Source: Candidatus Zixiibacteriota bacterium
GTDB taxonomy: Bacteria > Zixibacteria > MSB-5A5 > GN15 > FEB-12
Reading direction: 5' to 3'
NCBI GenBank assembly: GCA_034003725.1
Contig: JAVEYB010000002.1
Coordinates: forward strand, 206,568-265,391
DNA: 58,824 bases
Both the position numbers and the translations under genes were made by a program. Each line of letters begins with the position of its first letter. Positions within the stretch are counted from its first letter, which is position 1. Shown here piece by piece: positions 1,419 to 33,212 of the stretch. The notes beneath the pieces were generated by a model that worked only from the letters and a program-made list of their open reading frames with translations, had not been told where the DNA came from and ran no database searches.

Positions 1419-4400
1419 CTATTTCAGCAGATCGCAGGCCTGAACGCACGGGCGGGGCGCGGGTCCGCCGAGGAAGAGGTGATTGACAAAGTAGATGAGG
1501 TCAGTCAGATCAACCTCACACGCCGGATCTCCGTTGATGTTTGACTCGCCGCGACACGCCGGTGCGGGTCCTCCCAGGAACAGGTGATTTACGAGGAAGA
1601 CGAGATCCGACAGATCGATTTGATCCTGCGGATCGTCGTTTACGTTGCCGGTCGGATCGGTGCAGCAGCTCGGCGGCGCCCACGTGAACTGCCAGACGTA
1701 GCTGCAACTGTCGGCGCAGGCGTTACCGGCTTCGTCCGTGATCTTGAAGTACAGGTCGTGAGCGCCCGGCTCCACGGTCGGTGTGGGCCAGCCGATCGCA
1801 ACGTTGTCGCCCACGAGGTTGAATACCCACATCGGTTGCCACGGCCCGGTACAGCCATCGAGTCGGTAGAACCCGTACCCGAGGTCGATGTCGTCAATCA
1901 GATGGAACGTTATGGTCGGCAGCAGGTCCGTGTACGTCTGTCCCGAAGGCGGTGAGAAGACTGCCAGCGTGGGCCTGGTGCAGTCGATGCGCATGCAGCA
2001 CCCTGCGATTCTATGCGGCACCGGATCCATGATGGTATTCATGAGAGCGCTGTGGACGATTTCGATTTCGGTCGAGGCCGCCTCGCCGACGCAATTGACG
2101 ACAATTCCGAAGATTGTCACGGGCGTCAGTCCCAACTGGCCGCTGTTGATGTCGAACTGCACGACGATAGAGTCGGCGTAGGCGGTCGATGTCAGTGAGT
2201 AGTTGCCGGCGCCGATGCTGTCGAGTGCGGGGCCCGGCACGGCGGCAACGGGCTGGAGGTAGCCGGCCTGCACGCCGATCGTGAACAGCCCGGACCGGAC
2301 GACGACGGTGTCGTAGTCCATCTGCAGCCAGACCGTGTCGATGCCATCGCAGCGATTGAGCTGTCCGTCAGGACCGAGGCTCAGCAGCGCTTCCGGCAGC
2401 GGCTGAACGACGACGGCATTGGATACGCACGTGGTTCCGGCGGCGACGTCGTTAAACGGAGTGACATACGCTTCCCACGTGTCGTACGCACGGGTTTCCG
2501 TGTACTTAATGGTATTACGGCCGGCCGAGTACAGCGAGGCAATCTGTTCCGGCGTCAGCGAGTAGTTGTATACGCACGGGTCGTCGATAGTGCCGACCCA
2601 CGCGAACGTGCCTCCGTACGCCCCGATCTGCAGTAGTGCGTCGGTAACATCCACAACGGATGATACGGCCCTCGACACTTGAACACCATTCTTGTACAGG
2701 ACCATGTCGCCGGTCGCATAGTCGAATGTCAGGGCGACAAAATACCACGTGTTGAGGGCGAGTGGTTCGGTATCCTGCACGGTAAACCAGGCGCCGTTGT
2801 GACCGCCCGCGAGACGATAACTGTTGACGCCCGGAGCCCAGAAGGCATGGCTGCCGGCGTTGGGCAGGTTGCCGGAGATGATGTTTCCGTTATTGGCGCT
2901 TCCGGCATCGGTCCGATACACCCACGCGGTTTTGGTGTAGGACGAGCCGGTCGGGAACGACAACCCGCCGCTCAACCATGACGTTCCGTCGAACTGGAAG
3001 GCACCAAACCCATCGTGGCCCGCTGAACTACTCCAGGCCGGTGCACCGACTGTCGTCACCGTCGCTCCGCTGCCGGAGTAGTCTGTCAGAGCGTTGTCGG
3101 GTCCGCCTTCCATCGGCAGGTAGAATGCCATGGTGGGCAGGCCGTTTTTGTAGAACGCCGTGGCAGACGTGGTTGCATCGGCAACCAACGTGAACGAGCA
3201 GATAAGGTCATCGGTGATCAGCGCTTCCGGTGACGTGGCGATCAGTTGGATGTCGGTCAGTTCGACTACCGGGAGAGGATTAATGGTGACGGTGTTGGAG
3301 ACAGACGCCTCTCCCATTCCGGCGGCCGAGAACGGCGTGACGTGCGCTTCCCATACGTCGCCGACTTCCGTTTCGGACGGCACAATAAGGTCCGGTCCGG
3401 AGCCGTATATGGCGGAGATCTGGTCCGGGGTCACGACGAAGTCATACACTCGGGCATCGTCGATTACACCAAACCACGGGAAGACGGTTCCGTACACGCC
3501 GACCAAGAGTACCGGGTCGGTGACATCAAAGACAGTGGCCGTGGCGGTATCAACTTCCACGCCGTTTTTGTACAGCCTCAGCATGCCGGTTGTGTAGTCG
3601 AAGGTCAACGCGACATGGTACCACGTGGCGAGTTCCAACGGGTTCGGATCCATGACGGTGGTCCAGGCGCCGTTGTGTCCAGCACACAGACGGAACGACT
3701 GGTTGCTGGGCGCCCAGAATGCGTGGCTGCCGGGATTCGGATTGGTTCCGGAAATGATGTTACCCGCGTTCGCGCCTCCGTTGTCCGTTCGGTAGACCCA
3801 GGCCATCTTCGTATAGGAAGACTGCGTGGGGAAGGCAGTTGGGTTACTGAGCCATCCGCTTCCGCCGAACTGGTAGGCACCGAACCCGTCATGGCCCGCA
3901 TTCTGGCTCCATGGCAGCGTGCCGACCACGGTCAGGTCGTTGTCGTTGCCGGAGAGGTCTGCTGTTGAGGTCGTGCTGCCCTCAAACGGGTACAGTGCGG
4001 TCACAGTTGGTGAGCCGTTGAGGTACCAGGCGGTCGCGGCCGTGACGGCGTCGGCCACCAACGTATACGAGCAGAACAAGGAGTCGCTGACATAGGCGTA
4101 CGGCGACGATGCCGCGACGGTGAGATCGGCCAGCTCAATCTGCTCGAGAATGGTCAGGTTGTTCGAGATGTAGGTGTCGCCGGCTTCGGACGCAGAGAAC
4201 GGCGTGACGTGCGCGGACCAGACGTCGAAGTGTTCGGTCTCCGAAGCCATGATGACGTTTTCGCCTCCGGCGGCAAACATGGCGGCAATCTGGTCTGCGG
4301 TCAGAGCCCGGTTGTAGATGCGGGCATCGTCGATTGTTCCAATCCACTGGTACTGGCCGTTATAGGCTCCGACCTGGAGCGTCGAGTCGGTCACGTCGGC

Positions 4401-7400
4401 CGAGGCCGCCGTACCCGTATCAATCACAACGCCGTCTTTGTACAGGGTCATGAGACGGGTCGACTGATCGTAGGTGACGGCCACGAAGTACCAGGTGTCG
4501 AGCGCGAGAGGATCGGTGTCCTGGACTACCTGCCAGTCGCCGTTATTACCTGCCGACAGACGGTGCGAGTATGCGGTCGGCGCCCAGAACGCGTGGCCGT
4601 TGGGGCCGACATTGCCGGACATGATGTTCTGGCCCGCCCCGGTCCGATAAACCCACGCCGACTTGGTATATGACGACACTACAGGGAATACTTCGCCGGC
4701 GACGAGATAGTCGTCACCGTCGAATTCCACGGCTCCGTTGCCGTCATGTCCGGTGGTGGCGTTGAAGGCCGGATCGCCCACCGGCGTGGCATTATGAGCG
4801 TTGCCCGAGTAGTCGTTCAACGCGGAGGTCCCGCTTTCGAATGGATAGAACACAGTCATGAGCGGGGTACCATCCAGATACCATGCCGTGGCCGCTGATG
4901 TCGCAGCGTCAACAAGGTCATAGGTGACCGTGAGGTCGTCTTCGGTGAAGTCGTTTCCGGACGAGCTGCTCAACACGAGATTGGCGATCTCCACGGACGG
5001 GATTTCATTGATCGTCAGGGTGTTCGAGGAGACAGTCGTTCCGAGGCCGGTTGCCGCAACCGGGGTGACATCGGCGTACCACTGATCGCCAATTTCGGTT
5101 TCCGATGCCATGATGACATCCTGTCCGGTGGAGTACATAGCCTGAATCTGGTCGTCAGAGAGCGCGAAGTCATATACTCGGGCGTCGTCGATACGCCCGA
5201 ACCAGGGGGCGACATTGCCGTATGCGCCGACCTGGAGAGTCGAGTCGATCACATCCTTCACAGCGACGGTACCGGTGTCAATGAGCACACCGTCTTTGTA
5301 CAGTGACATGAGGCCGGACGTATAGTCGAACGTGACTGCGACGAAGTACCAGGTTTCAAGGGCCAGCGGGACATTGTCGGCGACGGTCGCCGTAGCAATC
5401 CAGGCGCCGTTATGGCCCGCCCGCAGAGTGTGGCTCACGCCGCTGGGCGCCCAGAACGCGTGGCTGCCGGCGGTCGGGTAGTCGCCTGAGATGATGTTAC
5501 CACACTGTGCCCCGCCCGCGTCAGTGCGATAGACCCAGGCCGTTTTGGTATACGACGACAGGGTCGGGAAGGTCTGACCTGCGGACAGGTAGCCCGTGCC
5601 GTCGAAAACGAGGGCGCCGGAGCTGTCGTGTCCCGCGGTGCCATTCCATGCCGGAGTTGTCCCGAGAGCAGTGACGGTGAGTGCGTTACCGGACAGGTCC
5701 GCCAACGCATTGGACGCCCCGCCTTCAAACGGCAGATACAGGCTCAACATCGGCGTGCTGTTAACATACCAGGCGGTTGCAGCGCCGTCGGCACCATCGG
5801 AAAGCGTATACGCGACCGTCAAATCGTCGTCATCATAGGAACCCGGGGTGCTGGCGGACAGGACAACATCGGATACCTCGGGCAGGTATGGGTTGATTGT
5901 CAAGACATTCGACGTGACGGCGGTTCCGACCGCAGTCGCTGAAAACGGAGTGACGGTTGCCTGCCATTCATCGTCGATTTCAGTCTCGGTGTGTTTGATA
6001 ACATCACGTCCCTGCTGATACAGCGAGAGCACCTGTTCCGGAGTCAGCGCAGTGGTATACACGCGCACTTCATCCATGGAGCCGTGCCAGGGGAAGATGG
6101 CGCCGTAGATGCCGATATTCAGCTGGGTATTGGTTACATCGGGAGTCGTCGGATTGCCTCTACTGACTTCAATACCATCCCGGTACAGGATCATCAGATT
6201 GGTGGCATAGTCGAAGGTCATCGCAACACAGGTCCAGGTGTTGAGATCCAGTGAGTCCGGATCGTACACCGTAGTCCACGTGGAATTGTGACCACCGGAC
6301 AGATGATAACCGTTGTTGCTGGGGGCCCAGAAGGCATGGGAGCCGGTGGTGGCGCCGCCGGAGATGATATTTCCGTAGTTGCCGACGCCCGCGGCTGTGC
6401 GATACACCCACGCGAATTTCGTGTACGACGAGTTGGTGGGGAAGTTCGGGCCGGCGGAAAGCCAGTCGTTGCCGTCAAAATCGTAACAGCCGAATCCGTC
6501 AACGCCGCCCGTGGCATTCCATGTCGCGTCGCCTGATACGGTAAGTGAGAGGCCGTTTCCGGAGTAGTCGGCCAGTGACGCGGTTTGGCCACCTTCAAAG
6601 GGGAAGTACGCGCGCATGATCGGGCTGCCGTTGCGAGACCACGACGTCGCGGCGGTGATTGCGTCGCCGCCCAGCGTGTACGTGCAGGTAAGATCGTCAT
6701 CGGTGAAGTTGTTCGGAGTTGATGCGGCGACCGTTACGTCGGTAACGGCAGGCTCGGTAGGGCCATATATCGTGATGGTATTTGACTTGACGGACGCACC
6801 GGCTTCCGTGCTGGAGAACGGCGTTACCCAGGCTGCCCAGTCGTCGCCGATCTCGGTTTCGGTGTAGCGCAGAGTATCAGTACCGCCCGGGGTGTACAGG
6901 GTCGCGATCTGCTCGGGAGAGAGGGCGAAATTGTACACGCGAGGATCGTCAATGGTACCCGTCCACCAATGGCCGGGTCCGAAGGCGCCAACCGTTATCG
7001 TATTGTCCGTGACGACACTGTCAGCCACGGGGACGGTGGCGGTGTCAACAACGGCGCCGTTCTTGTACAGGACCATCATTCTTGTCGCGATATCGTAGCT
7101 GACTGCGACGAAGTACCATGTGTCCAGGGCCAGCGGTTCGCTGTCCTGTACGGTGGTCCAATGTGAATTGTGACCGGCCGACAGTGCGTGCGAGGTGCTG
7201 GTAGGAGCCCAGAAGGCATGTCCGCCTGCACCAAGGTCGCCGGAAATGATGTTGTTGTTTAAGGTTCCCGTGCGGTAGACCCAGGCGGTTTTGGTATACG
7301 ATGAATTGACCGGGAAGTTTTCACCCGCGATCAGGTGGTCGTTGCCATCGAAGTCCATGGCTCCGAAACCATCGTGACCGCCGGTTGCCGTCCAGGCAGG

Positions 7401-9218
7401 ATCTCCGACAGCGCTGACTGTAACCGACTTACCGGAGTAGTCATTCAAGGCGTTCGCGCTGCCGCCCTCGAACGGGAGATACAGGGACATGGTTGGGAGG
7501 TCGTCCTTCAGCCATGCCACGGACGCGGTGGTGGCGCCCCCTTGCAGCGTGTATGTGGCAAAGAGATCGTCATCGTCGCCGTTTTCCGGCGATGTCGCAC
7601 TTATGAGGACATCGCTGAGGTAGACGGACTTTATCGTCACCGTATTGGAAAACGCCGGCGCTCCCTGAGAGGTGTCCGAGAACGCGGTGACGCGCGCAAA
7701 CCACTGGTCGGTGATGGACGTCTCGGCGGCATCGATACGGTTTTCGCCGTCAGAGAAGAGTGTGCTTATCTGGTCGGGCGAGAGGACAAAGTTGTACAGC
7801 CGGACATCATCGATAACACCCTCGAACTCTGAGCCGCCCTGATACGCGCCGATCTGGATCGTAGCGTCAGTACAGGCCGGAGCGGTTCCGCGGTCGACCT
7901 CGCTTCCATCTCTGTAAAGAATCATCTCACCGGTGGAGTAGTCGTAGGTGAGGGCAACGAAGTACCAGGTGTCTTCGCTGAGTGCGGTTGCGTCCTGAAC
8001 GACCGTCCAGTTGCTGTTGTGACCGGCTATAAGGACGTTGCCAAGCGAAGCGGGACAACGAATAACATGTCCGCCCGCGCTCACATCGCCGCAGAAGATG
8101 TTGTTCCAATCACTGGCCTGTCTGTTGATCCACATCGTAGCACTATACGACGCGTTGACCGGGAAGTATTCGCCCGCAGACAGGTACGCGTCATTGTTGA
8201 ATTGAAAAGCCCCGGTGCCGTCGTGGCCGATGGTGCCGGACCATACGGGACTGCGCACCGGCGTCAGCGTCCGGCCGTTGCCGGAAACATCGTGCAGCGC
8301 GTTGGTGTCTCCACCTTCGAAGGGGAAGATCATCGCGGCAAGCGGCGAACCGTTGCGGAACCATGATGTGGCTCCCACCACCGCTTCGCCGTCAAGCGTG
8401 TAGGTGAAGATGAGATCGTCGTCGTCGAGTTCAAACGCCGAGGTTGCGGTCACGGCCAGGTCCGTGACTCCAACGTCGTTGGGAGCCCACGAACTGGTGC
8501 CGAGGACGGAGTCAAGTGCGGTGAACCAGACGTTGCCCATTTTGCCGTACCCGACATCGTTCGGATGAACGGCATCGGCGAGGTCTGCCGGATATGTCAA
8601 CGCCTCGAACATGTCGACAATCGCGATATCGTCGCCGGCGGCGATCCGATCCTGCGCAATAGCCAGTACCCCGGCATTAAAATCGGCAGTTTCGGGATCA
8701 TAGCCGCCGTCGCGCGAGATGATGGCAGCTAGTATCACCTTGATGGAGACCCCGTAGGTCGATTCGTAACGGTCGATTTCGTCGAGGATCTGCGCGACTT
8801 CCTGCGGATTGGCATCGCCATGCGAAATGTCGTTGGTGCCGATGTGGAGCAGGACTATGTCGGCGGGATTCTGTACCAGCCAGCCGTAGACATAGTCCCG
8901 AATCTGGTTGGCGTGCCAGCCGCCGTGGCCCTCGTGGTCGCGGTCGAAATCGAGAGGTATGCCCCCGATTTGCGACCCGACGAAGTCCACCCAGTAGCCG
9001 GCGTTAGTGAGTTGCAGGTACAGCGACCTGCGATAACCGGTGTCGTCTGAGCTGCCAACGGCTCCGTCCGTAATGGAGTCCCCCAGCGGCATTATTCGGA
9101 CCGGCGCCGGTTGAGCCCAGCCAGCGGTCACCAAAGTGACCAAAGCCAGGCATGTGAGTACCAGGGTCGCCACGGACACGTGACGATCCGGTGTGTCTTC
9201 CACTCTTCTTGCCTTCAT
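1419..9218 (-). CDS. Giant secreted SGNH/CE3-type esterase with seven LamG repeats and a dockerin-like C-terminus
   Basis: The protein has 2599 residues from the ATG at 9218. The frame stays open to 9392, but 9218 begins a clear signal peptide (M-K-A-R-R, hydrophobic core V-L-T-C-L-A-L-V-T-L-V, cleavage near G-W-A-Q-P) and has a G-rich site upstream. Residues about 40-240 form an SGNH hydrolase of the carbohydrate esterase 3 type: G-D-S-I-T-D-G at about 44, H-I-G-T-N-D, and the late H-P-N-D-V-G-Y-G with catalytic D and H. Then come seven copies of a unit of about 290 residues: an Ig-like linker (D-D-D-L-x-x-x-Y-T-L) and a concanavalin/LamG jellyroll (P-F-E-G-G, D-Y-S-G-N, W-V-Y-R-T, D-T-W-Y-F-V-A, I-D-D-A-R-V-Y). 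A cohesin-like region (about 2265-2410), an Ig-like region and the dockerin-like pair (from about 2518) close it. It probably deacetylates or binds an external polysaccharide. Confidence 0.88.
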   Translation of the reverse strand: MKARRVEDTPDRHVSVATLVLTCLALVTLVTAGWAQPAPVRIMPLGDSITDGAVGSSDDTGYRRSLYLQLTNAGYWVDFVGSQIGGIPLDFDRDHEGHGGWHANQIRDYVYGWLVQNPADIVLLHIGTNDISHGDANPQEVAQILDEIDRYESTYGVSIKVILAAIISRDGGYDPETADFNAGVLAIAQDRIAAGDDIAIVDMFEALTYPADLADAVHPNDVGYGKMGNVWFTALDSVLGTSSWAPNDVGVTDLAVTATSAFELDDDDLIFTYTLDGEAVVGATSWFRNGSPLAAMIFPFEGGDTNALHDVSGNGRTLTPVRSPVWSGTIGHDGTGAFQFNNDAYLSAGEYFPVNASYSATMWINRQASDWNNIFCGDVSAGGHVIRCPASLGNVLIAGHNSNWTVVQDATALSEDTWYFVALTYDYSTGEMILYRDGSEVDRGTAPACTDATIQIGAYQGGSEFEGVIDDVRLYNFVLSPDQISTLFSDGENRIDAAETSITDQWFARVTAFSDTSQGAPAFSNTVTIKSVYLSDVLISATSPENGDDDDLFATYTLQGGATTASVAWLKDDLPTMSLYLPFEGGSANALNDYSGKSVTVSAVGDPAWTATGGHDGFGAMDFDGNDHLIAGENFPVNSSYTKTAWVYRTGTLNNNIISGDLGAGGHAFWAPTSTSHALSAGHNSHWTTVQDSEPLALDTWYFVAVSYDIATRMMVLYKNGAVVDTATVPVADSVVTDNTITVGAFGPGHWWTGTIDDPRVYNFALSPEQIATLYTPGGTDTLRYTETEIGDDWAAWVTPFSSTEAGASVKSNTITIYGPTEPAVTDVTVAASTPNNFTDDDLTCTYTLGGDAITAATSWSRNGSPIMRAYFPFEGGQTASLADYSGNGLSLTVSGDATWNATGGVDGFGCYDFDGNDWLSAGPNFPTNSSYTKFAWVYRTAAGVGNYGNIISGGATTGSHAFWAPSNNGYHLSGGHNSTWTTVYDPDSLDLNTWTCVAMTFDYATNLMILYRDGIEVSRGNPTTPDVTNTQLNIGIYGAIFPWHGSMDEVRVYTTALTPEQVLSLYQQGRDVIKHTETEIDDEWQATVTPFSATAVGTAVTSNVLTINPYLPEVSDVVLSASTPGSYDDDDLTVAYTLSDGADGAATAWYVNSTPMLSLYLPFEGGASNALADLSGNALTVTALGTTPAWNGTAGHDSSGALVFDGTGYLSAGQTFPTLSSYTKTAWVYRTDAGGAQCGNIISGDYPTAGSHAFWAPSGVSHTLRAGHNGAWIATATVADNVPLALETWYFVAVTFDYTSGLMSLYKDGVLIDTGTVAVKDVIDSTLQVGAYGNVAPWFGRIDDARVYDFALSDDQIQAMYSTGQDVIMASETEIGDQWYADVTPVAATGLGTTVSSNTLTINEIPSVEIANLVLSSSSGNDFTEDDLTVTYDLVDAATSAATAWYLDGTPLMTVFYPFESGTSALNDYSGNAHNATPVGDPAFNATTGHDGNGAVEFDGDDYLVAGEVFPVVSSYTKSAWVYRTGAGQNIMSGNVGPNGHAFWAPTAYSHRLSAGNNGDWQVVQDTDPLALDTWYFVAVTYDQSTRLMTLYKDGVVIDTGTAASADVTDSTLQVGAYNGQYQWIGTIDDARIYNRALTADQIAAMFAAGGENVIMASETEHFDVWSAHVTPFSASEAGDTYISNNLTILEQIELADLTVAASSPYAYVSDSLFCSYTLVADAVTAATAWYLNGSPTVTALYPFEGSTTSTADLSGNDNDLTVVGTLPWSQNAGHDGFGAYQFGGSGWLSNPTAFPTQSSYTKMAWVYRTDNGGANAGNIISGTNPNPGSHAFWAPSNQSFRLCAGHNGAWTTVMDPNPLELATWYHVALTFDYTTGMLRLYKNGVEVDTATATVFDVTDPVLLVGVYGTVFPWFGVIDDARVYDFVVTPDQISAIYGSGPDLIVPSETEVGDVWEAHVTPFSAAGMGEASVSNTVTINPLPVVELTDIQLIATSPEALITDDLICSFTLVADATTSATAFYKNGLPTMAFYLPMEGGPDNALTDYSGSGATVTTVGAPAWSSSAGHDGFGAFQFDGTSWLSGGLSFPTGSSYTKTAWVYRTDAGSANNGNIISGNLPNAGSHAFWAPGVNSYRLAGGHNGAWFTVQDTEPLALNTWYFVALTFDYATGDMVLYKNGVQVSRAVSSVVDVTDALLQIGAYGGTFAWVGTIDDPCVYNYSLTPEQIASLYSAGRNTIKYTETRAYDTWEAYVTPFNDVAAGTTCVSNAVVVQPLPEALLSLGPDGQLNRCDGIDTVWLQMDYDTVVVRSGLFTIGVQAGYLQPVAAVPGPALDSIGAGNYSLTSTAYADSIVVQFDINSGQLGLTPVTIFGIVVNCVGEAASTEIEIVHSALMNTIMDPVPHRIAGCCMRIDCTRPTLAVFSPPSGQTYTDLLPTITFHLIDDIDLGYGFYRLDGCTGPWQPMWVFNLVGDNVAIGWPTPTVEPGAHDLYFKITDEAGNACADSCSYVWQFTWAPPSCCTDPTGNVNDDPQDQIDLSDLVFLVNHLFLGGPAPACRGESNINGDPACEVDLTDLIYFVNHLFLGGPAPRPCVQACDLLK
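2880..8400 (-). repeat. Seven tandem Ig-linker/LamG coding repeats, period about 870 bp
   Basis: The stretch coding for W-V-Y-R-T (W-I-N-R-Q in the most upstream copy) recurs near 8125, 7275, 6402, 5527, 4645, 3790 and 2922, a regular step of roughly 850-880 bp. Each unit also repeats the codon blocks for P-F-E-G-G, N-I-I-S-G, H-A-F-W-A-P, H-N-G-A-W and W-Y-F-V-A. The downstream copies resemble each other more than the first (signal-proximal) copy does, which suggests expansion by internal duplication. Bounds are approximate. Confidence 0.85.
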
Positions 9219-9773
9219 TTGCGCCCCCGCAATTGCATGTACGGTTGATAATGATGAGGTTAGCAGAGGATGACGCGACAGCCGAGAGAGGGAGTCATCT
9301 GTGGTGTATCTGCCCCGCAGAGCCGGAATGGTACTGCCCCCATCGTACTGCCGAGACGCAACACGTCGATAGCAACCAGGTGCCGACGTCACCCCCTGTT
9401 AAGTGATTTCTACCTCTAATCGCTTCTGTGGGACGTGACATGTACCGAGTCGCATCGGATGCGGCAGAATAGGGGAAAGTCGCGCATGCAGTCGAGCGTG
9501 ACGCTGCCGTTCTGGATTACCATTGGACCTAGCCCGATAGTGACGGAGTCCTTGTCGCCCACTTTACCTGTAATATGGACAACGCACTCCATTCGTCAAG
9601 GAGTATTCTGAGCAAGTCCATGAGAATCCTATTAGTTAGGCCAACGCGACACCCAATGTCGCATTAACTGCGACAGAAATTGACTGCAATCGTCGGCAGA
9701 TGGTTTGCCGAAGAGAGTGTGCTCTACTGACGTCGGCTTACGCGGGCGAGCATAGTGAGGAGGCCGAAAGAGA
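9219..9773. other. Intergenic region upstream of the giant esterase gene, with a doubtful 58-codon ORF
   Basis: There is no convincing gene here. On the minus strand an ATG at 9592 opens a 58-codon frame ending at 9416. It encodes a beta-rich stretch (G-K-V-G-D-K-D-S-V-T-I-G-L-G-P) and three cysteines, has no Shine-Dalgarno site, and has a stop just upstream. It could be a relic of a secreted-protein gene or chance. No strong promoter was recognised for the 9218 start. Confidence 0.3.
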
Positions 9774-18151: not shown

Positions 18152-19639
18152 TTATTCGCAGTTCGGGTCACACGGCATGGGAGCCGCTCCCTGCAGGAAG
18201 AGATAGTTCACCAGATGGATCAGGTCCGACAGGTCGGCGTCGCAGGCGGCATCGCCGTTAGTATTGGCGGCTGCGAGGCATGCCGGCGCAGGACCGCTGT
18301 TGAACAGCCAATCGACCATGTAGATCAGGTCGGAGAGATCGACATCGCCGGCGATATCGTCGTTGATATTACCGGTGTTGCCGACGCAGCAATACTGGGG
18401 GCACGGGTTCGGTGTGCAGGAGGTGCCGTCGCCCTGATACGTCCCGCCGGACTGGCCGCATTCGGTTGCCGTCAATTCCGCACAGGACCCATCGAGGTAA
18501 CAGCAGGCGCCGGTCGGCTCACCTATCTGGCCAAGCAGACAGAAAGACAAGTCGCCCGCTTCCGGACCGAGGACGGACGTGGCATCCAGCAGGTAATGTT
18601 GGTTGTCGATGCCATATCCGCTCATCCAGAGGAACCAGCAGGTGGCGGCATCCGTCCCCTGTATGGAAAGCCAGCCTTCGCTCAGTGCCACCGGGCTGGT
18701 CAGTTCGACGCGGTATTCATCGAGAGTGAACCCGGAGAAGAGGAAGGCAGTCGGGATCCCGGCCACCGAGACATCAAACGTGGCAACCGGTGTGCCGGGT
18801 TCGCCCGCGTCATCCTGGTAGAATACGATTTGCAGGTCGCGAGGTGTTTCATCGCATTCCGACCAGCCGGAGCCGGGGTTGTAGGCACTTATCGCCCAGA
18901 AGTGAACGGCGGCGATGTCGGTCGTGAGACCCTCGAAGTAGTCATACCGAAGCAGCGGGCCATCGGTGAATCCAACGTCGCTCACTCCGGCCGACCATCC
19001 GGAATAGTCCGGAGTGTGGGTAGACTGCCCGAAGATGGTCGTGTCGACCGGGCAGTAGTCGGGCGGCGGCTCACCCACCACTACATCGAGGAAATAGGTT
19101 CCACTGGCAGTGCCATAAGCGTCAATAACAATATAGTAGGTGTTGCCTCCTGTCACCGGTACACCGACCAACTCGGATTTGTAGCCGTCACTGCCGCAGG
19201 CATCGTCGTTACAGGCGTGAGGCGATCCGGGGATGACGGCATTTTCATAGATGTACATCTTGGTGTCGTACAATGACTGACAGAGGGACACGTCGATCCA
19301 CTCGTTTGCGGTCGGCGTGTACGAGTACACAACATCAGGGGCCGTCGAGCCGGTGTACGGACACACTTCGTCATAGTCGTTGGTGTAACCGGTGGTGGTT
19401 CCAGAGCTGGAGAATGGAAGTGACGGAATCACGACGGCCGTCGCGACGTTGTCGCCGCCCTGCTTCGTAACCTGTGGATCGGGCGGCGTCAGTTCGCCGG
19501 TTGGCGGTGGTTTTTCGATCGAGAACGTGGACTCTGCGTTGAGAGATCGTTCAGCGGTCGCCAGATCGGCCACCGCCCACGCCGCCAACACGAACACCAC
19601 GAGCCCGATGCATACGGTCCAGAGTCGCGCCCTTGTCAT
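18152..19639 (-). CDS. Secreted PPC-like protein with dockerin-like C-terminus
   Basis: The 495-residue protein begins with a signal peptide (T-R-A-R-L-W then V-C-I-G-L-V-V-F-V-L-A-A-W-A-V-A) and has a perfect AGGAGG site seven bases before the ATG. Residues about 55-190 resemble the bacterial pre-peptidase C-terminal (PPC) beta-sandwich: D-V-V-Y-S-Y-T-P, Y-D-T-K-M-Y-I-Y, C-N-D-D-A-C and Y-Y-I-V-I-D-A-Y-G. A second beta-rich region with F-Y-Q-D-D-A-G-E-P-G-T-P follows, then a cysteine-rich segment (G-A-C-C-Y-L-D-G-S-C with C-x-x-x-G-G-T-Y-x-G-D-G-T-x-C). The dockerin-like pair starts at about 415 and ends C-D-P-N-C-E. No catalytic residues are recognisable; a binding or structural surface role is likely. 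Confidence 0.82.
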   Translation of the reverse strand: MTRARLWTVCIGLVVFVLAAWAVADLATAERSLNAESTFSIEKPPPTGELTPPDPQVTKQGGDNVATAVVIPSLPFSSSGTTTGYTNDYDEVCPYTGSTAPDVVYSYTPTANEWIDVSLCQSLYDTKMYIYENAVIPGSPHACNDDACGSDGYKSELVGVPVTGGNTYYIVIDAYGTASGTYFLDVVVGEPPPDYCPVDTTIFGQSTHTPDYSGWSAGVSDVGFTDGPLLRYDYFEGLTTDIAAVHFWAISAYNPGSGWSECDETPRDLQIVFYQDDAGEPGTPVATFDVSVAGIPTAFLFSGFTLDEYRVELTSPVALSEGWLSIQGTDAATCWFLWMSGYGIDNQHYLLDATSVLGPEAGDLSFCLLGQIGEPTGACCYLDGSCAELTATECGQSGGTYQGDGTSCTPNPCPQYCCVGNTGNINDDIAGDVDLSDLIYMVDWLFNSGPAPACLAAANTNGDAACDADLSDLIHLVNYLFLQGAAPMPCDPNCE

Positions 19640-19972: not shown

Positions 19973-22204
19973 CTATTCACAATTCGGATCGCACGGCATG
20001 GGAGCCGGACCACCCAGGAACAGGTTGTTGACCAGATAGACCAGGTCGGAGAGGTCGATATTACATTCGGTGTCGCCGTTTACGTTCGCCTCAGGAGGGC
20101 ACGGGGCATCCGGGCCACCAAGGAAGAGTCGATTGACGAGGTAGATGAGATCCGACAGATCAACCAACTCTTCCATATCACCGTTGACATTGCCCGTGAT
20201 ACCGACGCAACAGCCGACCTGATACGTGATCGATCCTGCCACGAGGTCCGGCGTGAAGCTGCCCATTTCGGTTACCAGTGAGGGCAAGTGAGACAGATAC
20301 CCATTCACGGAAATGGGGCTGGTACCCGGAAGGGCCGATGTCGGTACGGTGAAGAAGATACTCAGAACGGGCCCGTCGCCGGGGGGCAATGTCGGCGCAC
20401 CGGGATTCTGGGTGGGATCGATGAAGTAGGTGCCTCGCTTATTGCCGCCGTCGTAATGAATCCACTGGTGGTAGACGAAGGATTCGGTGCGCAGGCCGGT
20501 GGTGCGCGACGAGTCGAACTGGAGGTTGAGTTCGCCCGCCCAGCTGACCGGAAGCGTAAGCGACTGCAACGGGACATGGTTGCAGACGCATACATCGACG
20601 CGTACCGACATACCGGGATGGCCGAGTGTCTCGGTTGCGTAGACGGTGTCCGCAAATGCCATGACCATGTCCGGCCCGAAGTCCGACACGGTATAGCCGG
20701 GGATTTCGACTGTCATTCGAACGTCATACGCTCCGGCCTCGGTATATGTGTGCGACGGCGACTGCTCGTCCGAGCCCTGGCCATCGCCGAAGTCCCACGT
20801 CCAGGAGAGTGCGGTCTCCGAGCTCGATCCGGTAAACTGCACCGTCAGCGGGACCGGTCCGAAGCAATTGGAGCCCTCCATCCGGCAGACCTCTTTGGCC
20901 AGACCTTTGATACAGAAATTGGCGGTGCTGTTAAATGTTGTCAGATCGAGCCAGGTGCCGCCCGAACGAAAGTAGCTTTGCCCGGACTGGGCTGATGATT
21001 CAACAAGTGTGCGGTACTTGGCTCCCAGGAGGACGGGAACATCGGACGTTCGGTCGAACGCATGACCGCCGTCCGAGAGGGAAACATAGATGTAGAACTC
21101 ATCACCGCCAGTGAGGCCGACCGGTGGATCGAGGTCGATGGTGTGAAAGCCGGTGAATTCGATCATGCCGGATGTCGTGGCAAGCACGTCCATCAGTTCG
21201 CCGCCTTCAAAACGATCATATATCGTGACGACGTAGTCTACGCTGTCGACGGCCGTGAAGAAACTAACGGCCTGCAGCAGCTCACCGCCATCGGCGGTGA
21301 AGGCGTTAAACGCCTCAACGGCGTCGGTCCGGGTGTCGCGCCAGCCGTGGTAATCATGGTAGTAGACTTTGTCCCAGGCGAAGGGTTCCACATCCTGGAA
21401 GGAGATGGCACCCATTTCCGGGTGGCGGGCGGCGTGTTTGTCGTAGTACGAGATCCAGAAGTAGCCGCTGAGTCCCCACCAGGAGCCCCAACTGTTCTTG
21501 CAGAGCCATGCGCCGGGTTGGGGCGCCTGCGTGATTTTGGAGTCATCCCAGCCGATGATCGCGACGGCGTGGTTCGGGTCGAGCGAACTGCTCGGCGGCT
21601 GGTAGTGGACGTAGCTGCCGTTAATGAAAGCGTCATCGTAGCACATACACGTGCCCATGACGCCTTCATCCATAATTTTCTGCTTGATCAGATTGATACG
21701 CTCGAGGTTGGGGCCAAGGGTGTACCACTCGATGTCTCTCGGATAGTAATAGTGGTAGCTGGGTTTGGTGCGGTCCGGCGGCGTCGAGTAGCTCTGGCCG
21801 TCGATATCTCGTACCGCCCCTTCGCCACGGCTGAGGTAAGCCGAGGTGACCCGGTAGTCACCGCCCTGATGGACGGTCAGGCCGGCGCCATCGGGCGGGT
21901 CGATGTCATCGTTATTGTGGTCGTTGAAACCGTTCCACCAGTCGAGGTGGTATTCGGCAAGATTGGGCTCGCCGGACTCTCCGTTGGCTGCCCACAGCCC
22001 GGTCATCAGCAGGTTGCCTTCCATCGCGGACATTGCCCCGTGGGTCCAGCAGGTGCCGCCCGACTGCGATTTCACCGAGGTTACGTAGTTGTGCCCACTG
22101 TAGTTGCGGAGGTCAAAAGTGCTGGGTGGCGTCTGAGTAAAGGTGGCAGCCGCGGCCAGCCAAACGAGCGCAGTAACAATTACAAAGCAGCGTAGACGCT
22201 TCAT
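19973..22204 (-). CDS. Secreted papain-like (C1A) cysteine peptidase with PKD, cohesin-like and dockerin-like domains
   Basis: The 743-residue protein starts at the ATG at 22204, which has AAGGAG six bases upstream and opens a signal peptide ([20 protein letters not shown]). There is no obvious propeptide: the mature enzyme begins at once with F-D-L-R-N. Catalytic residues are oxyanion Q47, C52 in S-G-G-T-C-W, H212 in [11 protein letters not shown] and N237 in [11 protein letters not shown] beta-sandwich of the kind found after bacterial C1A domains follows, then a PKD domain (W-D-F-G-D-G, S-H-T-Y), a cohesin-like domain (about 520-665) and the dockerin-like pair. It is probably an extracellular protein-degrading enzyme. 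The neighbouring M28 peptidase has the same C-terminal layout. Confidence 0.9.
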
Positions 22205-22253
22205 GCAGGACTCCTTTGCGACGCACAATCGCCAAATGGATCAAGTTGTCAAT

Positions 22254-22378: not shown

Positions 22379-24568
22379 CTATTCGCAGGCGGGGTTGCAC
22401 GCCGCCGGTTCAGGACCACCCAGAAACAGGAAATTCACCAGATAGATTAGATCGGAAAGGTCCACACCGCACTCGCTGTCCCCGTTGACATTTGCTGCAG
22501 CCGGGCAGACCGGAGCGGCTCCACCGAGGAAGATGTGATTCACCAGGTACATGAGATCTCCGAGGTCGACAGTGCCTTCGGTGTCGTTGTCGGTGTTGCC
22601 GGTGAATCCAATGCAGCAGTTTCCAGTCGACAGAACGGTACCCATTGTCTTCGGATTGTACACGAGGTCCTTCCAGTGAAACACCGGCAGGTGGGTGGTG
22701 TACCCGCCGAGATTGACGAACGTGCTTTCTCCCAGCTGGGCATCACCGGGGACGGTGAAGTGGAGACGAATCAGGAGCCCGTCGCCGGGCGGGAGGAAGG
22801 AGGCCGGATTGGCATCGACGGACTGAACCATGACGGTTTTGCGGAACCGGGCGGGATCCCAATGGAGCCAGACGGGAGGCTGCATATGTGAAGCACGCGT
22901 CCCAACAGTGGTGGCGGAATCGAAGACGGCGCCGAGCGTACCCGTATATTCCACAGGGACCTCAAGGTAGTTGACGGGTACGGTATTACGTCCGCGAACG
23001 TCCACGACAACTCGAGTGCCGGCGACCGCGTTTTGCGTCTGTGGCCCGACCATCGAGTCGGCGAGCGCCACGATATAGTTCGGCTTGATCAGCTCTCGGG
23101 TTGCATCGCCGGTGCTGATCTGCATCGACACAGTGTGCAGCCCCGACTCTGTATACTCGTGCGACGGAGTCTGGACGAAGGCGGAGTCGCCGTCGCCAAA
23201 TGACCATGCCCACGACAGAGCGTTAAATTGTGTATTGCCCGTGAAATTGACGGTGAAGGGCACCCATCCCACAGTAGTATCAGCGCTGAAGGAGGTCCAG
23301 CCGGCCTGCTCACTGACGTAATAGGCGGTTGCCGCGCTGGCCTGTGTCATTCGATGAAAGTAATCGAAATTGACATAGGTGGTGCTGTCCTGAGGCGAGT
23401 GATAGACCGTCGAGAAGTTGTACTCGTGGACGAACGTGACTTCCCAGCCCTTCTGCTGAAACGGATAATGGTCGGAAGAGGCGGAGACGCCGGCAAGTTC
23501 ACCGGTGATTCCCACAAGCGAATCGGCCAGGCCCATCCACAGTTCAGAGAAATCGGTGACGGCGCCATGGAAGAGATTAGCCTGATTTGAATTCTGGTAA
23601 TGTCCGATCATATCCATATTCAGCATGTACACGATCGTGTCACCGCGCAGCGCCGCCTGGTCAGCATAGTACTTGGCACCATACAAGCCCCATTCTTCGG
23701 CGTCGAAAAGGACGAACACCATGGTCATTTCGGTGGGTACGTCGGCCAGCGCACGGGCGATTTCAAGCACCGCGATTGAACCGGTGCCGTTGTCGTCAGC
23801 GCCGGGCGAACCGGGGACCGCATCGAGGTGCCCGCCCACAATCACGTAGTGATTGGGAAAGGAGGCTCCGACTTTGGTTGCGACTACATTGTAGCAGTTG
23901 GTGGGCGTCCCGTAGATGCTGGAGACAAAGGGCTGGACGAACAGTGAATCGTACCCATAGGAGGAGAACTTATTGTACGCCCAGTTGCGTGCGGTGGTGT
24001 ACCCGGACGATCCCGCAACCCGATAGAGAGTCTGGAGATAGTTGAGCTGGGCCTGGATCGTATCAAGCGAGATACGTGCTATCAGGGAATCCAGCGACAG
24101 AGTCATCGAACGGGGCGATTTGAGAGCGGGCAGCGAGGCGTACGGATTGGAGTCGAGATACTCGATTCTGACCTCTGCAGGATCGAGCGCCCGCAGTTCA
24201 ACGAATTGGCCTCGGTACTGCGGGTCATTCAGGTTTACCCGATACAGCCGGATGCCGTCCTCGTCATAGATCAGCGGATAACGGCCGGTGTTGGCGCGGT
24301 CCATTCTCATATCCAGCGCCAGTTCTTCCAGTGTAACATCAACGGCAACTCGCCGGGCCTCAAGTCCACCGGCAAGCAGAGCCTGAGCAGCGTCTGAGTC
24401 GGCGAGAACCAGGTAACCGTCGTTGAGTCGCAAAAGCGGCTGGACACCGGCAGCGACAAGGTCCTTGGCGTCGGTTTCACTGGCGACGATCACGCGGTAG
24501 ATTTCATCAGCCGATACGGCGGGAACAAGTGTCGCGAGGCAGAAGACCAGAACAATGAACTGTTTCAC
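22379..24568 (-). CDS. Secreted M28 zinc peptidase with PKD, cohesin-like and dockerin-like domains
   Basis: The 729-residue protein has a signal peptide (M-K-Q-F-I-V-L-V-F-C-L-A-T-L-V-P-A-V-S-A) and AGGAGG seven bases before the ATG. After a propeptide-like region (about 21-165) comes an M28 aminopeptidase fold with the two-zinc site complete: H247 in G-G-H-L-D, D258 in G-A-D-D-N-G, E291/E292 in D-A-E-E-W-G, D319 in N-M-D-M-I-G and H390 in Y-H-S-P-Q-D. A PKD domain (W-S-F-G-D-G, S-H-E-Y), a cohesin-like domain and a dockerin-like pair ending in C-N-P-A-C-E follow. It likely releases amino acids from peptides outside the cell, complementing the downstream endopeptidase. Confidence 0.92.
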   Translation of the reverse strand: MKQFIVLVFCLATLVPAVSADEIYRVIVASETDAKDLVAAGVQPLLRLNDGYLVLADSDAAQALLAGGLEARRVAVDVTLEELALDMRMDRANTGRYPLIYDEDGIRLYRVNLNDPQYRGQFVELRALDPAEVRIEYLDSNPYASLPALKSPRSMTLSLDSLIARISLDTIQAQLNYLQTLYRVAGSSGYTTARNWAYNKFSSYGYDSLFVQPFVSSIYGTPTNCYNVVATKVGASFPNHYVIVGGHLDAVPGSPGADDNGTGSIAVLEIARALADVPTEMTMVFVLFDAEEWGLYGAKYYADQAALRGDTIVYMLNMDMIGHYQNSNQANLFHGAVTDFSELWMGLADSLVGITGELAGVSASSDHYPFQQKGWEVTFVHEYNFSTVYHSPQDSTTYVNFDYFHRMTQASAATAYYVSEQAGWTSFSADTTVGWVPFTVNFTGNTQFNALSWAWSFGDGDSAFVQTPSHEYTESGLHTVSMQISTGDATRELIKPNYIVALADSMVGPQTQNAVAGTRVVVDVRGRNTVPVNYLEVPVEYTGTLGAVFDSATTVGTRASHMQPPVWLHWDPARFRKTVMVQSVDANPASFLPPGDGLLIRLHFTVPGDAQLGESTFVNLGGYTTHLPVFHWKDLVYNPKTMGTVLSTGNCCIGFTGNTDNDTEGTVDLGDLMYLVNHIFLGGAAPVCPAAANVNGDSECGVDLSDLIYLVNFLFLGGPEPAACNPACE

Positions 24569-28830: not shown

Positions 28831-31524
28831 TCAACAACCGGGGACACAGGCCGCCGGAGCGGCGCCGCCGAGGAAGAGATAGTTGACGAGTGCGATGAGA
28901 TCGGACAGATCAATGGCACAGGCGGCGTCACCGTTGACGTTAGCTTCGCCCGGGCAGACCGGGGCGGGTCCGCCGAGGAACAGGTAGTTGACCAGATAGA
29001 TCAGATCGGACAGGTCGATCGCGCTGAGCGCGTCGTTGTTCACGTTGCCGGTCGGAGAGACACAGCAGCCGCCGGTATCACAGGAGTCACCGATGCCATC
29101 TATATCGGTGTCTTCCTGCAGCGGATTGAAGTTCAACGGGCAATTGTCGCAGGGCGAGCCCCAGCCGTCGGCATCGGGATCCGGGAACGGATCGTCGCTG
29201 ACGCCGTTGCAGTTGTCATCGACCCCGTTGCATACGTCGGTGGCGCCCGGATTTATCGCGGCGGTTGCGTCGTTGCAGTCGGTGTTGTTGACTACGAAAC
29301 CTACGTTGCATACGCCGACCGGGCTATATGTCCCGGGATCGAGAATGTCTCCGTAGGTGTCCAGGTCGAGATCAACATAACACATCACGGCGTCGACTCC
29401 GTTGCAGTCCTGATCGATGGCGTCGAACGGAATGTCGAATGCGGCCGGATTGATCCCTGCGTTGTTGTCGTCGCAGTCAAAATTGTTGGCGGAGAAGCCG
29501 GGCCCGCAGGTGCCGTTGAGGTTAATGGTCCCCGGATCCAGCATATCTCCGAATGTATCACTGTCGACGTCCTGATAGCAGAGCACCGCATCGACACCGT
29601 CGCAGTCCTGATCGATGCCATCGTTGGGAATCTCGGGGGCGCCGGGATACACGTTGGGATTGGTGTCGTCGCAGTCGCAGGCGGTCCCCGCCGGATCACC
29701 GTCACCGTTCGCCTGAGAAGGATTGAATACGGTCGGGCAGTTGTCGACGTCGTCGGGAATACCGTCGGCATCGGTGTCAGCCCGCTTCAGGCCGCTGAAG
29801 AAGATGTCCTGATCGGCAAAGTTGCGGCCGTCGTTCCAAACGAACGCGGGACCCTGCGCGAGATGAAAGTCGGTGCCGAGGTAGTCGCTGAACTTTTGTC
29901 CCAGCGAACCCGGTGTCAGCGAATTCGGGGGGAAGCCTCCTCCGAGTGATACCATGGCGTCGACCCAGGTGACACCGCAATCGGGAGATGTGGAGGCCCA
30001 CACCTGCGTGAGGATATTGCCCGGGTCATTACGACGGTCATAGTAGGTTACTATGATCTCGCCCGTATTGGCATCCACCCGCATGTGAGGCGCCCACTGG
30101 TCGAGGCCGTTTCCAGCGGGATCCTGATTGATCCGTGTGGCGACCGACCAGGTGAGGCCGCCGTCAAAGCTGGCCGAGAAAAAGATGTCGGCATCGCCGG
30201 TAACCATGTCATCCCATGCGACGAACACGGCCCCCGGACATACCGGGTGAAGCTGGGTGGCGATGGTCACATGGTTGCAGGCGTCAATCCCCGGCGCAAT
30301 TATCTGCGGAATCGGCGGGCCCGGAGCTACGGCCATAGGCCCGGCGCCGCCGGTGAGTGCTCCCCACGGCGCACCGAGTCCCGGGGCCGGGTTGGCGTCG
30401 ACAAGCACGACTCCGGCCATGAGGTCTCGCATGGCGACATAGACTGCGCCCGGTCCGAGCAGCGGGTTGGGAGTATCAAGCACATCAAGCGCCCCGCGAT
30501 GCGAACCCGGGGAGTTCGGATACACGGGTACCGGGCCGAACAGCGGAGTAAGGGGCGCAAAACCCGGATAGACCGGCGATGCACCGGGGCCAACCGTGTT
30601 GGTGGAGGTAGTCCAGAGCGTCCACACGTCACCGAGGTCATCATACGGATTGCCGTTGCCGTCGGCGTCGCCGCCGGTGGCGTCGGTGAACTCGGTCCAG
30701 AGAAGGTGGGTCTCGCCGGGGACGGGGGCCAGCGCGATGTCATCGGCTTCGACTACCGGAAAGTCGACCCATGTGACGCCGGGGACGTTAAAGGCGAAGG
30801 GCGCCCCGGGGACAAAGCCTGCACCGCCGCCCGGACTGATATTGGCCACGATTGCGTTTGCAACCGGCGCCCACGGCGGACCATTGCGCTGTGAAGAGAC
30901 CATGAAGTACCCGCCTGCCGGTGGGATGGTTGCGGTGATCCAGGGATTCCACTCCTCCGTGAATCCCGGGTCAGGAGGCTTGATGCCATTGGTCCAGGTG
31001 CCGATGGCGCCGCCGGTCGGAGACCATGACCACCCTACCTGTGTGGGGGCGTTCGCTCCCGGGACCATAAACTCATTGAAGGTCGAGTAGACTTCGCCGT
31101 TGGCGAGTTCGCTAATGGCTACCGACGCATTGTTCTGATCCCGGCCGATGCCGAAGTTCGGATTGACATTGCTGTTCGGATACGGGGTGAACACGAAGAT
31201 TGTATCCACCATGGCCGGGTGAACGCTGCAGTGGTAGGGGAACGGACCTGGACCATCGAGCGGAGTTATCACGATTTGGTAGGACATACCGGCAGTTCCC
31301 ATCACTCCCGAGTCCCAGAATTTTCGCGACGTGAAGTCGGACGTAGTCGAGTGAACTCCCGCGACCAGCGTCCACTGCACCGTGTCGCCATAGGATACGG
31401 TGATGTTGGACGGCGTGAAGAAGAAGTTGCCGATGCTGATGTTGTGGATGGTCGCACCCGCCGGTTGCGACAAACAAAGGGAAAGCACCAGAACCACACC
31501 TAGTGCCCGTAAGCGTGGATTCAT
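28831..31524 (-). CDS. Secreted cupredoxin / MopE-type metal-binding repeat protein with dockerin-like C-terminus
   Basis: The 897-residue protein has a signal peptide (V-V-L-V-L-S-L-C-L-S-Q-P-A-G-A) and AGGAGG eight bases before the ATG. Residues about 25-112 form a plastocyanin-like domain with a complete type 1 copper set: H58, C99, H102 and M105 (H-C-S-V-H-P-A-M). Residues about 120-580 look like a BNR/sialidase-type beta-propeller without catalytic residues that I can assign. Residues about 583-805 contain TSP3 repeats (D-A-D-G-I-P-D-D-V-D-N-C-P) and three MopE-type putative metal-binding units (D-C-D-D, P-G-A, I-D-Q-D-C-D/N-G). The dockerin-like pair follows. Electron transfer or copper handling at the cell surface is possible but not shown. 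Confidence 0.85.
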   Translation of the reverse strand: MNPRLRALGVVLVLSLCLSQPAGATIHNISIGNFFFTPSNITVSYGDTVQWTLVAGVHSTTSDFTSRKFWDSGVMGTAGMSYQIVITPLDGPGPFPYHCSVHPAMVDTIFVFTPYPNSNVNPNFGIGRDQNNASVAISELANGEVYSTFNEFMVPGANAPTQVGWSWSPTGGAIGTWTNGIKPPDPGFTEEWNPWITATIPPAGGYFMVSSQRNGPPWAPVANAIVANISPGGGAGFVPGAPFAFNVPGVTWVDFPVVEADDIALAPVPGETHLLWTEFTDATGGDADGNGNPYDDLGDVWTLWTTSTNTVGPGASPVYPGFAPLTPLFGPVPVYPNSPGSHRGALDVLDTPNPLLGPGAVYVAMRDLMAGVVLVDANPAPGLGAPWGALTGGAGPMAVAPGPPIPQIIAPGIDACNHVTIATQLHPVCPGAVFVAWDDMVTGDADIFFSASFDGGLTWSVATRINQDPAGNGLDQWAPHMRVDANTGEIIVTYYDRRNDPGNILTQVWASTSPDCGVTWVDAMVSLGGGFPPNSLTPGSLGQKFSDYLGTDFHLAQGPAFVWNDGRNFADQDIFFSGLKRADTDADGIPDDVDNCPTVFNPSQANGDGDPAGTACDCDDTNPNVYPGAPEIPNDGIDQDCDGVDAVLCYQDVDSDTFGDMLDPGTINLNGTCGPGFSANNFDCDDNNAGINPAAFDIPFDAIDQDCNGVDAVMCYVDLDLDTYGDILDPGTYSPVGVCNVGFVVNNTDCNDATAAINPGATDVCNGVDDNCNGVSDDPFPDPDADGWGSPCDNCPLNFNPLQEDTDIDGIGDSCDTGGCCVSPTGNVNNDALSAIDLSDLIYLVNYLFLGGPAPVCPGEANVNGDAACAIDLSDLIALVNYLFLGGAAPAACVPGC

Positions 31525-31734: not shown

Positions 31735-31776
31735 GGAAAAAGAGAGCCGGGGGGCCCATTATGGAGCCTCCCGGCT
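31735..31776 (-). terminator. Intrinsic terminator of the selenoprotein gene
   Basis: A stem of about 11 pairs with one G-U (31745-31755 pairing with 31766-31776), followed on the minus strand by CUCUUUUUCC. It lies 27 bases beyond the stop at 31803. Confidence 0.75.
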
Positions 31777-31802: not shown

Positions 31803-33212
31803 TTATTCGCACGCGGGGGCGCACGCGGTCGGAGACGAACCGCCAAGGAATAAAAAGTTGACCAGGTAGATCAGGTCAGACAAATCAACATTACATGAGG
31901 TGTCGCCGTTTACGTTAGCGGCAGCCGCACACTGGGGCGCCGTACCTCCGAGGAACAGGAAATTCACGAGGTAAATCAGATCCGAGAGATCCACGGCGCC
32001 GCCGGTGTCGTTATTGATGTTTCCTGTTGAACCCAAACAGCAGGCGGCCGTGACATTCAGGGCCGGGGACCAGTCCGAGATCTCGCCGAATCGGTCATTG
32101 ATGCGCACCCGAACCTGGTAGTCGCCGGCCAACTGGTAGGCATGTGACCGAGAGACGGTACCGGGTGCGAACGGTCCGGTCCAGCCGGTGGTGCCTCCGT
32201 CGCCGAAATCCCAATCGACCAGCAGGCTATCGTTGTCCGAGTCGGCGATCGTCGCCTGGAAGTTCTGCGCCGAGTTGAGCGGGCAGGCGGTCGGACCGGT
32301 CGGCGCGACCGGATCGTCGGGCGCGACATTCGCGGGCACACCGTTACCGATTTTGATTCGGACTTTCATTCGATAGTTGGCGATCCAATCGGTAGCGACG
32401 ATCATATCCAGCGGAACGACGGATCTTGCACCGCACGCCTGCACGGCGGCGCGCATCGGGTCGGCGTTTGACGGACCGCCGACGACAACTTCATCGCCGC
32501 CGTCGAAGAAACAGGAGGGGTATCCCGCAAAATTGTAATCCAGATCCATGCGATCATAGGCCTTGGAGACCTTGTCGCAGATCATTGAAACGTAGTGCAT
32601 ATTGTACTTGTCGTGGAAAAACACTGAATCCAGCGCACGGCTGGCTTCCGGGCAACTCGGTCACCAGGTTGCCGATCCCTGCTCAATAAATACAGTGTGG
32701 GTGAAGCCGCCGTCAGTGGAGTTGCGGCCGACGGCGCCGGGCTCAGCGGCAGCGGCAGCATCGGCGTTGTGGGCGGTGAACCAGTACCCGTAGCCGGGAT
32801 ACGCATCGGCTGTGTATCCGGCGCTGTTGAACAGCGCGACGGTCGCCTGGATACTGTCTTCCTCAACCCCGGACCATCCGGCGGTCGTGGCGTTCCACTC
32901 CACGGTTCGTTTGTAGACGCCGTTATCGGGAACCACTATCGCTTCGACCAAACCCCAGTCGAGAAATCCAAAGCTGTAACGTTTCCCTTCGCTATCCCAC
33001 CAGCGCGAGATCGGTTCCACGATGTAGACACGAATGGTGCCGGTGTAGTCGGCTCGCCCTACCTCATTAAATGAGGGGCTTTCGCCGGCAATGACCTGCT
33101 CGTAGACGCGTGCCTGGCGAACCACATTGAAGTCGCCGCCATAGGCGATCCCGGCAACCGCGAGGATCAGCGCGCACGCAACGTACCATCGGCTTTTTGT
33201 CAGTAGCTTCAT
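31803..33212 (-). CDS. Probable exported selenoprotein: thioredoxin-fold (W-Sec-P-S-C), PKD-like and dockerin-like domains
   Basis: One frame of 469 residues contains a single internal TGA at 32663-32661. Everything else argues for one gene: both sides are in the same frame, and the upstream part has AGGGAG seven bases before the ATG and a signal peptide (M-K-L-L-T-K-S-R-W-Y-V-A-C-A-L-I-L-A-V-A-G-I-A-Y-G). The downstream part has no ribosome site, and the protein is only complete if read through. Position 184 is the TGA, inside F-I-E-Q-G-S-A-T-W-[184]-P-S-C-P-E-A, i.e. exactly the first cysteine of a thioredoxin-like C-x-x-C (resolving C187), and G-Y-P-S-C-F-F-D-G-G gives the cis-proline loop. 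A PKD-like domain (W-D-F-G-D-G, S-H-A-Y) and a dockerin-like pair ending C-A-P-A-C-E follow. Alternatives are a nonsense mutation or an assembly error. Confidence 0.8.
32626..32648 (-). promoter_or_regulatory. SECIS-like hairpin just after the in-frame TGA
   Basis: On the minus strand GAAGCCAGC and GCTGGATTC pair over nine positions with one G-A mismatch, closing a five-base loop C-G-U-G-C. The loop begins 21 bases after the TGA and has G in its second position followed by U. That matches the general bacterial SECIS rules (short apical loop 16-37 bases after UGA, G among the first two loop bases) and the G-U recognised by SelB in the E. coli fdhF element. The hairpin lies wholly within the coding sequence. 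Confidence 0.6.

Follow-up and report, generated by a model that had tools for sequence, protein, structure and literature searches.

A minus-strand gene in a 58,824-nt stretch of a Candidatus Zixiibacteriota genome (the window, throughout) is, on every computational criterion, very likely a genuine selenoprotein gene. Its features predict, with a probability of about 0.95, an exported thiol/selenol oxidoreductase with the domain layout tabulated below and a redox role, in which selenocysteine (Sec) is inserted at residue 184 by means of SelB and a hairpin. Translation gives a frame of 469 residues that includes one TGA and closes with TAA. This lone TGA is codon 184, in the context ATW-U-PSCP, and the frame then stays open for 285 codons until the TAA; the initial annotation, which had placed a single TGA at residue 184 and counted 285 stop-free residues beyond it, described both correctly. 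A standard ORF caller cuts the frame into pieces of 183 aa and 273 aa, so such genes probably stand in public records as two broken genes.

Features of the predicted selenoprotein gene and related tail matches, in window coordinates
Feature	Coordinates	Strand	Basis
Predicted selenoprotein gene, 469 aa with one Sec	31803-33212	minus	Translation; same layout in homologues
Signal-peptide-like N-terminus, MKLLTKSRWYVACALILAVAGIAYGG	33135-33212	minus	Read from sequence; similar N-termini in homologues
N-terminal beta domain, family unassigned	32790-33060 (approximate)	minus	AlphaFold model
Thioredoxin-fold domain with UxxC and cis-Pro-type loop	32370-32780 (approximate)	minus	AlphaFold, Foldseek, profile matches
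Predicted Sec-UGA codon, residue 184, position 1 of UxxC	32661-32663	minus	Translation and homologue alignment
Predicted bSECIS hairpin, GAAGCCAGCCGUGCGCUGGAUUC, -8.4 kcal/mol	32626-32648	minus	Folding and family comparison
PKD domain, residues 303-380	32073-32306	minus	PF00801
Dockerin-like tail, two repeats, 79 aa	31806-32042	minus	66 matches in genome
Possible intrinsic terminator 3' of gene	31737-31772 (core 31757-31744)	minus	Terminator scan; site number not above chance
Tail matches elsewhere in the window	28834-29067, 22382-22618, 19976-20212, 18155-18391, 1431-1667

Homologues sought across the taxonomic family and the phylum were found in 57 of 132 genomes. Among 75 distinct homologues of the phylum, the codon aligned to 184 is TGA in 47, TGC in 14 and TGT in 14. 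Nothing other than TGA or Cys occurs at this position in any of the 75, which answers in the affirmative the alignment check suggested by the initial annotation, and a single additional in-frame TGA turned up in all the matched stretches. A chance origin of the TGA is excluded because 47 of the homologues carry TGA there and the other 28 carry Cys; the earlier remark that a random nonsense mutation would be unlikely to hit this one codon is borne out by its recurrence at exactly the same column. The same TGA is independently present in a congeneric genome (G053), and a second congener (G052) has TGT. At least 12 Sec/Cys switches were counted on a tree of 63 sequences from which the position-184 column had been left out, a quick build with many weak branches. 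Several genomes, such as G003 and G066, harbor neighboring Sec and Cys copies, and G003 also holds a Sec member with UxxxC, one residue longer than UxxC, and a strong hairpin (L040, contig C170). A scan of genome contigs found one true relative, the remaining matches falling mostly in the PKD region.

The source genome (3.73 Mb in 35 contigs, 99.5% complete) contains all four genes of the Sec machinery, selA, selB, selC and selD, for which the initial annotation had recommended a search. The tRNA-Sec gene scores 69 bits (cut-off 47) and has the anticodon UCA. Matches to selA (TIGR00474, 512 bits) and selB (TIGR00475, 302 bits) both exceed their cut-offs, and the two genes adjoin on one contig, about 10 kb from the tRNA-Sec gene. 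The selD match (373 bits; C13:102559-103482) has one in-frame TGA, in the motif ACAGUASK, which by comparison with known SelD we take to be the catalytic position. This SelD is therefore probably a selenoprotein itself and serves as an internal positive control. Within the taxonomic family, tRNA-Sec scores over the cut-off in 43 of 54 genomes; three genomes with TGA homologues (G013, G036 and G037) gave no tRNA-Sec over the cut-off, in incomplete assemblies (69-84%) and under stricter filters. A genome-wide reassignment of TGA, for instance to Trp, without selenocysteine would likewise keep the frame open through codon 184, but of 22 main window ORFs checked, 8 end in TGA, the residue that aligns with codon 184 is Cys and never Trp, and the Sec machinery is complete. 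The TGA-terminated ORFs and the Cys at the aligned column refute reassignment, whose probability is negligible.

Bacterial SECIS elements (bSECIS) are defined by four criteria in a 2026 review (PMC13188914): a loop of 3-9 nt on a stem of 4-16 bp, G in the first two loop positions, a spacing of 16-37 nt, and a minimum free energy of at most -7.5 kcal/mol. The hairpin of the window gene, with a 5-bp upper stem (CCAGC/GCTGG), a CGUGC loop with G at position 2, a spacing of 21 nt from UGA to loop and an energy of -8.4 kcal/mol with the lower stem included, lies within all four. Folding z-scores of this single hairpin against shuffled sequences were not significant, and the Rfam search gave no match there. 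Since the single-hairpin shuffle test was uninformative, comparison across the family and synonymous recoding were used instead. All four criteria hold in 32 of the 47 Sec genes and in 3 of the 28 Cys genes (Fisher p=1e-6), the other 15 Sec genes falling outside the strict -7.5 kcal/mol or other limits; a hairpin with G among the first two loop nucleotides occurs in 45 Sec genes and 5 Cys genes. Mean hairpin energy is -7.67 kcal/mol in Sec genes and -1.59 kcal/mol in Cys genes (Mann-Whitney p=3e-10, an optimistic value given that the sequences are related). Synonymous recoding of the Sec genes brought the mean to -2.37 kcal/mol (sd 0.41), while recoded and real Cys genes did not differ; for the window gene alone, 8% of recodings fold equally well. 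The hairpin evidence is modest for the window gene taken by itself and decisive across the family. The window gene and its homologue in a congener (L019) have identical hairpin letters and differing flanks, and the Cys version of another congener (L020) has lost the hairpin. Stem pairs vary among G-C, C-G, A-U and U-A with pairing kept, which is supportive only, as the stems were picked for pairing.

Against the same congener gene, L019, pN/pS is 0.229/0.645 upstream of the UGA and 0.215/0.659 downstream. Purifying selection is thus equal on either side of codon 184, so that the stretch beyond the UGA is translated and is under selection as protein. Could the gene nonetheless be a pseudogene, a Cys-containing thioredoxin-like gene interrupted by a nonsense mutation or a sequencing error? 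A single TGA in an otherwise intact frame is what such an event would leave, and Cys versions do exist, including that of the congener L020. However, 47 distinct genes, from many genera, have TGA at the same codon, hairpins track the TGA, and selection does not relax beyond it; these three observations refute the pseudogene explanation and leave it scarcely any probability. A subtler alternative is that UGA acts mainly as a stop, so that the main product would be an exported beta domain of 183 aa and Sec would enter only by minor read-through. The 183-aa ORF exists and its product would be exported, and bacterial Sec insertion is often inefficient, but the thioredoxin domain and the tail are conserved past the UGA and the Cys versions have no such stop, which makes this a very improbable account. 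The selenoprotein interpretation put forward in the initial annotation is supported, each testable objection to it having failed.

What fold holds the predicted Sec residue? The core domain has no Pfam match at E<=1, and that of the window protein none at E<=0.1. A profile of 25 homologues compared with the PDB found thioredoxins, weakly (E about 0.005). The AlphaFold model, a confident one (pLDDT 89.4, pTM 0.86), falls into two parts: Foldseek matches the second half to thioredoxins with probability 1.00 and a target TM-score of about 0.6-0.68, and its first half, a beta domain, lies outside the coverage of the top structure matches. Profile, AlphaFold and Foldseek together place the UxxC at the start of a helix in a thioredoxin fold. 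The thioredoxin-like assignment first made from the sequence therefore stands at the level of profile and predicted structure, though not as a Pfam hit for the core. Invariant in the family are H144, both active-site positions and P204 (core numbering), the last of which would fit cis-Pro. The PKD-like domain named in the initial annotation is real, with a PF00801 match at E=1e-9. A simple pattern match finds signal-like N-termini in nearly all homologues.

The C-terminal tail recurs well beyond this gene. It has 66 matches in the source genome, and window genes with the same tail include those at 28831-31524, 22379-24568, 19973-22228, 18152-19639 and 1419-9392, which agrees with the earlier description of a dockerin-like module common to neighboring genes. 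The first of these, downstream of the selenoprotein gene, encodes an exported protein with a cupredoxin-like start, MopE-type metal-binding motifs and a thrombospondin type 3 repeat ahead of the tail. Tail-type sequence is present at 25 of 29 homologue loci, the other four apparently being cut by contig ends or masked letters. Like type I dockerins (PF00404), the tail of the window protein has a duplicated, calcium-loop-like C-terminal repeat. Related tails of the same genome pass the PF00404 cut-off (about 12 of the 66 loci), and four cohesin domains (PF00963 being the cohesin family) score over theirs. Unlike type I dockerins, the window protein's own tail falls below PF00404, with no match at E<=1, and its cohesin binding is putative. 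The occurrence of the tail in dozens of exported proteins, together with the four cohesin matches, suggests a plausible cohesin-dockerin-like system at the surface. In three other frames of the genome (C2:12328-12555, C8:80640-80843 and C2:152196-152384) a TGA lies inside the tail match; since other tail-bearing frames show TAA or TAG instead, these are likelier to be broken genes than Sec genes.

The nearest named family is the Omp28-related selenoprotein family, NF045500, corresponding to the GOS_C hypothetical protein of an ocean survey (PMC2398784) and included in PMC13188914. It too is a predicted selenoprotein with a thioredoxin-like fold and UxxC. The window protein could be a plain member of this family: the NF045500 similarity is weak but real (23 bits, E=4.5e-5), hhalign against Omp28-type sequences of the phylum gives a probability of 97.4% over 107 columns, and the UxxC motif and a similar tail are held in common. 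Yet the homology is distant and confined to the thioredoxin part, and 23 bits is far under the curated cut-off of 200 bits, which no genome of the phylum passes. Unlike NF045500, the window protein carries its thioredoxin part centrally, flanked by an N-terminal beta domain and a PKD domain; here the beta domain precedes the thioredoxin part, whereas the Omp28-type set has about 150 conserved residues after it. The Omp28-type profile also has no match in the source genome at E<=0.001. Plain membership is accordingly unlikely, and the gap between 23 and 200 bits points instead to a separate, apparently unlisted family. Positions 321-374 of the NF045500 model do match the window-type tail, weakly (15 bits, E=0.009), so the combination of an exported UxxC selenoprotein and a tail of this kind probably has a precedent there. 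The initial annotation had called the fusion unusual; with 66 matches the tail is a genome-wide module, and given the apparently similar end of the NF045500 model that claim was overstated. Omp28-type thioredoxin proteins of the phylum with TGA in UxxC (L134, L145, L151 and others), all below the NF045500 cut-off, form a second set of probable selenoproteins.

More remote resemblances lead to other redox selenoproteins. Sec-containing thioredoxins, DsbA/DsbG-like and TlpA-like selenoproteins (Table 1 of PMC13188914) share with the window protein the thioredoxin fold, UxxC, Sec at the N-terminal catalytic position and the existence of Cys homologues. Unlike them, the window protein is modular and predicted to be exported, with PKD and dockerin-like parts, and it gave no match over the cut-off to the models of these families. 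NCBIfam selenoprotein models other than NF045500 gave no match, the 119-family inventory of PMC13188914 holds no relative recognizable by name or model except GOS_C, and a plasmid search found no match. The family is not described in the literature searched on selenoproteins or selenocysteine in Zixibacteria, on dockerin selenoproteins or on Omp28 selenoproteins. Judged from sequence comparison, it apparently constitutes an unlisted and so far undescribed Sec/Cys family distantly related to the GOS_C/Omp28 selenoproteins.

These features suggest how the protein might be made and used. SelB, carrying the Sec-tRNA with anticodon UCA, would recognize the hairpin 21 nt past the UGA and insert Sec at residue 184. 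From N- to C-terminus, the predicted product would comprise a signal peptide, the beta domain, a thioredoxin-fold domain with W-U-P-S-C as its active site, the PKD domain and the dockerin-like tail with its two repeats. Outside the cytoplasm, Sec184 would most likely be the attacking nucleophile and Cys187 the resolving residue. As to substrate and location, we infer that the reaction would be disulfide reduction or exchange, or peroxide reduction, and that anchoring or sorting is the probable role of the tail, possibly through binding to cohesin-type domains. The tail may play the same role in dozens of other exported proteins of the genome, and the Cys members of the family probably serve the same function without selenium. 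A broader proposal, advanced tentatively and with somewhat less than even confidence, is that the family is an undescribed exported modular Sec/Cys oxidoreductase family, regular in the phylum and with many Sec/Cys exchanges, with its members exposed on the cell surface or built into an extracellular cohesin-dockerin assembly.

The gene adds a predicted selenoprotein family missing from the 119-family inventory of 2026 and from the NCBIfam selenoprotein models. Because Sec and Cys have switched so often, and the hairpin comes and goes with them, the family is well suited as a natural data set on the gain and loss of Sec. It also points to the use of selenium in extracellular proteins of uncultured bacteria. 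If the broader proposal is true, a selenium-based redox enzyme would be at work outside the cell in a scaffolded complex.
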